In this document: one piece after another, positions 5,170 to 6,897 of the stretch
Numbering within the stretch: the stretch's first letter is position 1
How the letters are laid out: the number at the start of each line of letters is the position of its first letter
Notes under the pieces: model-generated
Seen by the model: only the letters and a program-made list of their open reading frames with translations
Databases searched by the model: none
What the model was told of the DNA's origin: nothing
Program-made: the position numbers and the translations under genes
Assembly (NCBI GenBank): GCA_018823105.1
Contig: JAHJJH010000019.1
Span: forward strand, 1-35,330
Direction of reading: 5' to 3'
DNA length: 35,330 nucleotides
From: Verrucomicrobiota bacterium
GTDB taxonomy: Bacteria; Verrucomicrobiota; Kiritimatiellia; CAIQIC01; JAGNIJ01

Positions 5170-5227
5170 TTTCACCAGTCGGATCGGTGGTAAGGATTAT
5201 TTGACTGCACTGAATTGAGTTGCCAGG

Positions 5228-5243
5228 CCACGCAATTGCGTGG
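5228..5243. promoter_or_regulatory. Perfect 16-bp palindrome, likely operator of the MNT-HEPN pair
   Basis: The sequence CCACGCAATTGCGTGG is perfectly self-complementary. It ends four bases before the ATG at 5247. The first gene encodes an HTH domain at its N-terminus, so binding of its own product here and autorepression, as is usual for toxin-antitoxin operons, is a natural inference. A TTGACT at 5201-5206 could be a -35 element, but no convincing -10 lies at the right distance. Confidence 0.55.
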
Positions 5244-5246
5244 TAT

Positions 5247-5846
5247 ATGAACGCAATCATGAACCGTTTGGCGGAGATTGTCGGGTCGAAGATCAGGGCG
5301 GAGGTCTTCCGGCTGCTGTTCACGGGCAGGGAACAGGAACTCCACATCCGCGAAATCCAGCGCCGTACCGGATTCAACGACCGGGCCATCCGACAGGAGT
5401 TGGTCAAGCTGGCACGGCTGGATCTCGTCGCGCCCCGGCGCGACGGCAACCGGCTGTATTATTCCGCCAAGAGGGACAACCCGCTTTTCCCCGACATACA
5501 CAACCTGACAATTAAGACCATCGGCTTGGCGGACGTGCTGAAGGCCGCTCTGCGATCCGAGAAGATTCAGGTGGCGTTCGTCTTTGGGTCCCTGGCGCAG
5601 GGGACGGAGAAAGCCGCCAGCGATGTGGACCTTGTGGTCATTGGAGCGCTGGGCATGCGCGAACTGACAGGGCTGCTTTCAGGCGTTACGGAGAAGATCG
5701 GCCGGGTGATCAACCCCCACGTACTGACCGTTTCCGACTTCAAGGCGAAAGTTCGGGCGGGAAACAACTTTATTACCGCGGTGCTGAAGGAAGCCAAGAT
5801 CTTCCTTAAAGGCGATGAACACGAGCTTACAGCATTGGCGCGATAA
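5247..5846 (+). CDS. HTH-fused minimal nucleotidyltransferase (MNT antitoxin-type)
   Basis: This 199-residue protein has two domains. Residues about 5-80 form a winged helix-turn-helix (ELHIREIQRRTG, then a recognition helix, then a wing with RRDGNRLYY). Residues about 105-190 form a Pol-beta-type nucleotidyltransferase with FVFGSLAQG (Gly114-Ser115) and SDVDLVVIG (Asp126, Asp128), the metal ligands. MNT proteins of this type neutralise HEPN toxins, in studied cases by AMPylating them. The HEPN gene overlaps the 3' end by 32 bases, so the two are translationally coupled. The start is uncertain: ATGs lie at 5247 and 5259 and a TTG at 5220, none with a clear ribosome site. The ATG at 5259 gives the family-like beginning MNRLAEIVGSK. 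The palindrome just upstream suggests autoregulation. Confidence 0.85.
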   Translation: MNAIMNRLAEIVGSKIRAEVFRLLFTGREQELHIREIQRRTGFNDRAIRQELVKLARLDLVAPRRDGNRLYYSAKRDNPLFPDIHNLTIKTIGLADVLKAALRSEKIQVAFVFGSLAQGTEKAASDVDLVVIGALGMRELTGLLSGVTEKIGRVINPHVLTVSDFKAKVRAGNNFITAVLKEAKIFLKGDEHELTALAR

Positions 5847-6261
5847 CGGCTGGTTGCGGGTTCACACCCCGACGCGCAGGGAGATCGCAGACTTGTTCGC
5901 GATAGCGGAGCGTGATCTCAAGGACGCCAGGGCGGCTGGGGTGTCTTCTGACTGGCGTTTCGGCATTGCCTACAATGCTGCCCTGAAGCTCTGCACCATC
6001 CTGGTCCACGCCGAGGGCTACCGTCCCGAGCACACGCTCCAACATTATCGCATGATCGCGGCGCTTCCTTTGATCATGGGCGCGGACCGCAAGACGGATG
6101 CGGATTACCTTGAAACCTGCCGCCGCAAAAGGAACGTGGTCGAATATGATCACGTGGGCGGGGCCTCCGACGCTGATGCCGACGAGTTATTGCAGTTCGC
6201 GGCGGAGTTGATGGCTCAAGTGCGCCACTGGCTGAAAAACACGCATCCCGAGTTGACATGA
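5815..6261 (+). CDS. HEPN domain toxin-type protein
   Basis: The 148-residue product is a HEPN domain protein: a four-helix bundle with helices beginning at about residues 20, 50, 75 and 120. The motif region CRRKRNVVEYDH contains Arg106-x6-His113, fitting the R-x(4-6)-H signature of HEPN RNases. FGIAYNAALKLC near residues 49-60 is the conserved second helix. The ATG at 5815 lies inside the nucleotidyltransferase gene (32-base overlap), the standard antitoxin-first order of MNT-HEPN modules. Such proteins cleave RNA, often tRNA, when released from the antitoxin. The pair probably serves as an abortive-infection or stabilisation module of the neighbouring island. Activity is inferred from family and motif; the module type is well supported. 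Confidence 0.85.
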   Translation: MNTSLQHWRDNGWLRVHTPTRREIADLFAIAERDLKDARAAGVSSDWRFGIAYNAALKLCTILVHAEGYRPEHTLQHYRMIAALPLIMGADRKTDADYLETCRRKRNVVEYDHVGGASDADADELLQFAAELMAQVRHWLKNTHPELT

Positions 6262-6275
6262 ACCCGATCGAAGGC

Positions 6276-6420
6276 TGGAGCGGGTGACGGGACCCCGCGT
6301 CCAGCGGGGTAAAATCGAACCCCGCCCCGCGTGTCGCGGGGCCGTGTAGTCAGCCCTGCCGGTGGCGGGGTGAACTTGGAAGGTTACCCCGCCAATCATC
6401 ACCCTGGTACAACCTGCTTT
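6276..6420 (-). pseudogene. Broken tRNA-Gly copy split by four inserts of about 20 bp
   Basis: Blocks identical or nearly identical to the intact tRNA-Gly at 6824-6897 occur in the same order and orientation. They are 6276-6292 (17 of 17 bases), 6314-6322 (9 of 9), 6343-6354 (11 of 12), 6375-6383 (9 of 9) and 6404-6407 (CTGG), perhaps with GCTTT at 6416-6420. They are separated by inserts of 21, 20, 20 and 20 bases. Inserts 1 and 2 are GC-rich hairpins in themselves. Inserts 3 and 4 are partly complementary, through GGCGGGGT and ACCCCGCC. On the minus strand inserts 1 and 3, and on the plus strand insert 4, begin TT(T/C)ACCCCGC or close to it. The inserts interrupt the acceptor/T-arm and anticodon arm, so a functional tRNA is not expected. 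Confidence 0.6.
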
Positions 6421-6465: not shown

Positions 6466-6732
6466 TCAAATCGGGAATATATTGACGGGCAGGTTGAATA
6501 ATGCGGCTTTCTTTTCACGCCGCCAGGCCTTGATTTCAATTTCCCGTTTTCGTGCCTCGGATTGTGATTTGCACGCTTCTGCATAGCGGTACTGCACGGG
6601 CCGCCGCGTTCGGGTCCAGCGGGATGCCACGCCGGCATTGTGCATGTCGAGACGACGGCTCAAATCCGTAGTGATGCCAACGTAGTAAGAACCATCCATG
6701 CATTCCAGAATATAGGTGTACCACTTTGCCAT
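6466..6732 (-). CDS. GIY-YIG nuclease family protein
   Basis: The 88-residue product is a single-domain GIY-YIG protein of the small UPF0213/YhbQ-like group, which is normally 80-100 residues. The core reads YTYILEC near residues 5-11 and SYYVGITTDLSRRL at 15-28, with the conserved arginine in SRRL. Next come RWTRTRRPVQ and the helix EARKREIEIKAW containing the likely catalytic Glu64. Members are found as stand-alone genes and in mobile regions; their biological role is poorly defined. The gene lies between the broken and the intact tRNA-Gly copies and points toward the defence genes. This position is compatible with cargo of an island inserted at the tRNA. No ribosome site was clear upstream of the ATG. 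Confidence 0.88.
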   Translation of the reverse strand: MAKWYTYILECMDGSYYVGITTDLSRRLDMHNAGVASRWTRTRRPVQYRYAEACKSQSEARKREIEIKAWRREKKAALFNLPVNIFPI

Positions 6733-6764: not shown

Positions 6765-6825
6765 CATTCGTCGGCCTGACACGGCTGGTTTACCATGAGG
6801 AGGCCGCGTCAGCGGCCGACGAATG
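6765..6825. repeat. Long imperfect hairpin abutting the 3' end of tRNA-Gly
   Basis: The arms CATTCGTCGGCC (6765-6776) and GGCCGACGAATG (6814-6825) are perfect inverted repeats. The inner segments TGACACGGC and GCCGCGTCA extend the stem with one wobble when read on the minus strand. The right arm overlaps the encoded CCA of the tRNA by two bases. It could act in tRNA transcription termination or processing, or be a small mobile repeat end. There is no T-run for a classical terminator. Confidence 0.6.
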
Positions 6826-6897
6826 GAGCGGGTGACGGGAATCGAACCCGTGTAGCCAGCTTGGAAGGCTGGAGCTTTACCTCTAAGCTACACCCGC
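6824..6897 (-). tRNA. tRNA-Gly (anticodon TCC), CCA encoded
   Basis: Read on the minus strand, the acceptor stem GCGGGTG pairs with CACCCGC, followed by T and an encoded CCA. The D-arm is GCTTAGAGGTAAAGC. The anticodon arm is CCAGC-CTTCCAA-GCTGG, giving anticodon TCC for GGA codons. The T-arm is CGGGTTCGATTCCCG. Length including CCA is 74 bases. The last 17 bases of the gene recur at 6276-6292, as expected where an element has used the tRNA 3' end as an attachment site. Confidence 0.96.

Follow-up and report, generated by a model that had tools for sequence, protein, structure and literature searches.

The window analysed here, a 35,330-nucleotide stretch of contig JAHJJH010000019.1 from a Verrucomicrobiota bacterium of the class Kiritimatiellia, carries on its minus strand an intact tRNA-Gly gene, a small endonuclease gene and a broken tRNA-Gly copy, in that order. 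The intact gene (6824..6897, anticodon UCC) is called by ARAGORN and scores 73.6 bits against Rfam RF00005; it is the native gene and serves as the empty-site reference. It is followed by an 88-aa GIY-YIG (URI-type) endonuclease ORF (6466..6732; Pfam PF01541, E 1.4e-17) and then by a partial tRNA-Gly(UCC) copy (6276..6407), whose sequence runs from immediately ahead of the anticodon loop to the terminal CCA, the 5' half being absent. ARAGORN and Rfam call the native gene only and find no cloverleaf in the broken copy. On the plus strand at 5220-6261, a small nucleotidyltransferase ORF (Pfam NTP_transf_2/Polbeta) overlaps a 148-aa ORF for which a Pfam search returned no match, an arrangement resembling MNT/HEPN-type pairs.

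Read along the minus strand, the broken copy consists of tRNA-Gly blocks alternating with four hairpin inserts. The first block, CCAG (6407-6404), precedes a 20-bp insert whose 5' arm is partly decayed and which ends in GGCGGGGTAA (6384..6403), the native anticodon-loop block CCTTCCAAG (6375..6383; identical to native tRNA-Gly, repeat D15), and a 21-bp insert, TTCA-CCCCGCC..GGCAGGG (6354..6374); the two inserts form inverted repeat I4. The block CTGACTACACGG (6353-6342) separates this anticodon-arm pair from a pair in the T arm, where inserts of 21 bp each, CCCCGCG..CGCGGGG-CGGG (6321..6341) and TTTA-CCCCGC..GCGGGG (6292..6312), flank the native T-loop block GTTCGATT (GTTCGAT(T), 6313..6320), as defined by empty-site comparison. 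The last block is CCCGTCACCCGCTCCA (6291-6276). A first, sequence-only reading had placed the blocks and inserts at these positions, which are confirmed. That reading can be refined: all four inserts belong to one hairpin family and are arranged as two inverted pairs, each around 7-9 native bases. The T-arm pair is matched by the covariance model R1 (C216:6293-6341, E 3.5e-10), a circular match in that this unit is one of the 12 from which R1 was built; matches of R1 in genomes that supplied none of the 12 are not circular. The anticodon-arm pair looks older than the T-arm pair because its first hairpin is without a 5' arm. The same anticodon-arm site is also occupied at a further locus, L220, by empty-site comparison.

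The tRNA-Gly ancestry of the blocks is borne out statistically. A gap-tolerant chain alignment of the native gene with 6276-6407 scores 28.8, against 7.1 +/- 1.1 for 120 dinucleotide shuffles (z=19), and random windows of the contig reach at most 10. Hairpins of the form CCCCGC-N-GCGGGG are confined, window-wide, to the broken copy, with three overlapping matches where 0.34 are expected. Decay or chance as the origin of the pattern is ruled out by this z value together with recurrence in many genomes, and an assembly artefact is unlikely given that independent public assemblies carry the pattern. A search for the insert family at other tRNA genes of this genome and its relatives, as the sequence-only reading had proposed, recovered further broken tRNAs. 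In this genome, where they came from a DNA search, tRNA-Asp has broken copies on both sides, in which two pairs occupy the T arm and another the D arm; a broken tRNA-Arg copy lies ~20 bp from tRNA-Arg; and tRNA-Gly(CCC) and tRNA-Pro have broken copies as well.

Across several genomes, broken copies of tRNA-Asp, Arg, Gly, Pro, His, Met and Val contain a unit of the general form [hairpin+YAAR]-X(7 bp)-[YTTR+hairpin], in which the two hairpins, E1 and E2, are inverted copies of one another and a TAAA or CAAG tag adjoins X. With the native gene as the empty site, 24 tRNA units were submitted to comparison; 23 were aligned, and the Arg unit was read by eye. No target-site duplication is seen. In the clean cases, which make up most of the 23 aligned units, native A-X-B corresponds to broken A-E1-X-E2-B, with flanks of 14/14 and 10/10, X of 7/7, and inserts of 19-23 bp with 21 bp modal; the length of X is ambiguous, at 7 to 9 bp, as insert ends can match the tRNA. 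Degenerate are L046, the second hairpin of the L101 units and the second hairpin of two L217 units. The unit of insertion is the inverted hairpin pair around 7 bp, and not the single 20-bp insert first supposed. A transposon of the target-site-duplicating kind (DDE/MITE) is ruled out by the native-versus-broken comparison. An integron attC site, with its GTTRRRY core, was set aside by reasoning rather than by scoring, X of the units being unlike that core.

In all, 62 candidate units are inverted dimers of hairpins that end in a tetranucleotide tag, mainly CAAG or TAAA. Among 45 units tallied, CAAG occurs 38 times, TAAA 25 times and CAGG 10 times, and neither GTAG nor CGTC was found. The two ends of a unit are usually unlike: 40/60 pairs combine a TAAA-type with a CAAG-type end, and one pair is TAAA-TAAA (permutation p 3e-4). 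The stems covary through compensatory changes (score 0.252, reached by 0/500 shuffles) and also switch to CCACGC/GCGTGG, while loops vary freely.

The units recall REPs and REPINs, which are likewise hairpins of 20-40 bp with a 4-nt tag at the foot, in inverted dimers that are often heterodimers. It is most improbable, in our estimation, that the units are classical REPIN or MITE insertions in which X is a fixed spacer that resembles tRNA loops by chance. Tag-plus-hairpin anatomy and inverted dimers are as in REPs (PMC3733652, PMC3116915), and some known REP dimers are located inside palindromes (PMC3733652); yet the empty-site comparison shows X to be the native tRNA sequence, whether at a T, D or anticodon site, and to differ from target to target, and target-site duplication is absent. 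Further differences are the tags, TTTA/CTTG here as opposed to the GTAG/CGTC of RAYT-associated REPs, a spacing of nearly always 7 bp (7-9) in which the spacer is target DNA, and precise hits in tRNA loops. Nor is there a diagnostic link to Y1 transposases: PF01797 is found in 246/288 genomes of the class, and the unit-rich genome G105, only 70% complete, has no PF01797 match, a distribution uninformative as to whether Y1/RAYT enzymes drive the hairpins. REPs share the tag-plus-hairpin dimer form with these units, but not the tag, spacing or footprint.

Rickettsia palindromic elements are also palindromic inserts within genes; they are longer and are not known to bracket 7 bp. To our knowledge, no known insertion mechanism has a footprint of paired hairpins around an unduplicated 7 bp, and a search of the open-access literature found no report of one. 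There is a substantial chance that this insertion footprint is categorically new. The GC clusters, or double-hairpin elements, of yeast mitochondria are short mobile GC-rich hairpins with conserved stems and variable loops (PMC4478555), and the units described here similarly combine stem-conserving compensatory changes with variable loops. The yeast clusters, however, have AG or ACT direct repeats at their flanks, interpreted as target-site duplications (PMC4478555), whereas our units reside in bacterial chromosomes, are without such flanking repeats and hold an unduplicated target between two hairpins.

The distribution of the units was surveyed at several scales. A pattern scan of species-representative genome contigs yielded 21 loci, the convincing ones being tRNA-Asp, Gly, His, Met and Pro copies in Kiritimatiellota, Lentisphaerae and Verrucomicrobia MAGs. 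A loose pattern search in relatives gave mostly chance matches and was replaced by the R1 covariance model. R1 finds units in 32/288 genomes of the class (E <= 0.001), abundantly in a few families, the number of units per genome being a lower bound; a same-genus genome, G001, yielded none. In a sample of the phylum, 7/241 genomes have units (E <= 1e-6), including two that do not belong to the class. At L101 and L217, tandem broken copies of tRNA-Met and tRNA-Val lie upstream of the intact gene, and the tRNA-Met copies have a further 24-nt hairpin-like insert in the anticodon loop.

Most of the 49-bp units lie away from tRNAs and from GIY-YIG genes. The idea of a mini-element that repeatedly targets tRNA arms is supported, since the same pairs occur in T, D and anticodon arms of broken copies in several genomes, but tRNAs are one target among others. 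Outside tRNAs, too, the hairpins come in short pairs of the same type and are not portions of an unrelated long repeat. REP-like GTAG..CTAC palindromes of this genome also harbour units of this form. Where units lie in tandem arrays of heptamers, X corresponds to a single repeat of the array; among 31 non-tRNA units, X is identical to flanking heptamers at 3.34/7 positions versus 2.15 when permuted (p 2e-4). At sites outside such arrays, the two flanks tend to pair with each other and place X at the tip of the resulting stem (p 0.001, an indicative value, the array and non-array groups having been sorted by eye beforehand). At L186, L200, L204 and L213, a pair lies within the remnants of an older pair, and the X boundary is common to both on at least one side. 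Insertion strictly in loops was rejected, since X at L058, the tRNA-Gly(CCC) locus of this genome, takes in the 3' strand of the anticodon stem. A sharp target consensus was likewise rejected; the STYCRAR-like signal is weak, about 4 bits, and inflated by an orientation chosen to fit. Heptamer arrays (CATCGAA/CGCCCAA, CCTCTGA) at L187, L201, L215 and other loci have a unit length equal to the 7-bp target spacing, and could be footprints of the hairpin-pair machinery.

The sequence-only reading had also raised a tRNA-derived RNA with lengthened helices, selected as RNA, which the survey disfavours and which we consider very unlikely. The transcript does fold better than shuffles (z -4.1) and the stems covary, but covariation is equally compatible with hairpin DNA, no Rfam family is matched, and copies are without the 5' half or the 3' end. 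Loops vary freely, moreover, and pairs of the same kind are also found outside tRNAs, in heptamer arrays and at REP-like tips.

The endonuclease gene at the locus belongs to a wider association. Of ten small GIY-YIG genes in this genome, six are no more than about 500 bp from the 3' end of a tRNA encoded on the same strand. Contig C208 of this genome carries three GIY-YIG genes (L049, L050, L052) with no tRNA found in the loci examined. In the class sample, with the best locus taken from each genome, a tRNA lies within 250 bp on the same strand at 23/29 GIY-YIG loci, and the GIY-YIG gene is on its 3' side in 21 of those 23. Extra partial copies were found near 20/36 tRNAs examined at GIY-YIG loci. 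We found no report in the open-access literature of GIY-YIG genes located systematically at bacterial tRNA genes. A close parallel is SegB of phages T4 and T6, a GIY-YIG homing endonuclease encoded beside tRNA genes (PMC13096335, PMC2988022) that drives tandem amplification of a tRNA-Tyr segment (PMC13096335). Shared with SegB are the GIY-YIG domain (PF01541), a small gene at tRNA genes and duplicated tRNA segments; the present loci differ in being chromosomal and bacterial, in involving many tRNA types and in having broken copies with hairpins, and their cleavage is putative. The tRNA association and the duplicates are directly observed, and we infer from them cleavage and a SegB-like origin of the duplicates. 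The nuclease and hairpin processes are not strictly coupled, because broken tRNAs with hairpins but no GIY-YIG gene nearby occur (Arg, Pro, Val, Met). At L091:5560-6500, the duplicated segment comprises not only the broken copy but also ~60 bp from upstream of tRNA-Asp, and so includes the likely promoter. At L233, a partial tRNA-Pro and a GIY-YIG gene are duplicated in tandem with near-identical nuclease copies, resembling SegB-type segmental amplification.

Elements at tRNA-Ser have a distinct organization, with 5' halves upstream and 3' halves downstream of an intact tRNA and GIY-YIG gene, and with larger hairpin pairs interrupting the halves at the anticodon loop. In the genomes searched, these hairpins occur at tRNA-Ser only, and at the same anticodon position in several genomes. 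Four arrays (L228, L238, L240, L248) consist of repeated 5' halves with a hairpin end, an intact tRNA and a GIY-YIG gene; a 3' half is present in 3/4, and the hairpin pairs are of a family other than the 49-bp unit. The larger pairs are more readily seen as a working component of the GIY-YIG element than as a repeat independent of it.

This bears on the main alternative, which we regard as unlikely, namely that the hairpinned tRNA loop is a functional part, an attachment or homing site, of the GIY-YIG element. A cassette of intact tRNA and GIY-YIG gene would then split A-(E1-X-E2)-B and leave direct repeats of the hairpinned loop at either end, the hairpins rendering the flanking halves uncuttable or recombinogenic. 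The topology A-(hairpin loop)-b-[tRNA+GIY]-a-(hairpin loop)-B does repeat, at tRNA-Asp (L002, L091) and tRNA-Ser (L228, L238), with the right-hand half of the Ser topology at L051 of this genome, and the fixed position and lack of dispersal of the Ser hairpins agree with such a role. Against it, GIY-YIG genes are common in genomes where R1 finds no unit. An attachment site would explain why the topology recurs and would cover the Ser elements, but it leaves unexplained the numerous units remote from tRNAs and from GIY-YIG genes.

The reading towards which we lean, with modest confidence, is that two mobile processes meet: a SegB-like duplication of tRNA genes by GIY-YIG elements, and the insertion of REP-like hairpin pairs into the dispensable copies. 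Comparison of sequences documents paired insertion, the 7-bp bracket, the lack of duplication, the preference for loops and heptamers, and the co-occurrence with tRNA duplicates. A free-standing GIY-YIG endonuclease gene resides 3' of tRNA genes and would, as SegB does, promote tRNA duplication, giving one intact and one or more partial copies. A non-autonomous REP-like element of about 21 bp, a hairpin plus a 4-nt YAAR tag, would insert as an inverted pair flanking a 7-bp target, on opposite strands and without duplication. For the simplest chemistry we infer staggered joining: two hairpin ends, typically one of TAAA and one of CAAG type, would each be joined to one target strand, at points 7 bp apart, with each hairpin becoming sealed to the target at either end. 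The preferred targets are 7-nt palindrome loops (tRNA T, D and anticodon loops, and REP-like tips) and the units of heptamer arrays. Insertions into tRNAs would persist only in surplus, redundant copies, because the native gene is essential. A more tentative proposal, which we hold to be somewhat doubtful, is that this is a new form of DNA insertion, hairpin-target-hairpin with ends joining opposite strands 7 bp apart, used by or coupled to tRNA-borne GIY-YIG elements that carry or restore an intact tRNA.

These results also suggest that the small GIY-YIG genes, which are common in these genomes and rarely explained, make up a class of tRNA-resident elements in bacteria, comparable with SegB of phages. 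Where a broken tRNA copy lies next to the intact original, insertion is recorded base by base, and the pair shows directly what footprint a palindromic repeat leaves. The paired-hairpin footprint bears on how REP-like hairpins spread, and the broken tRNAs are ready substrates for testing it.
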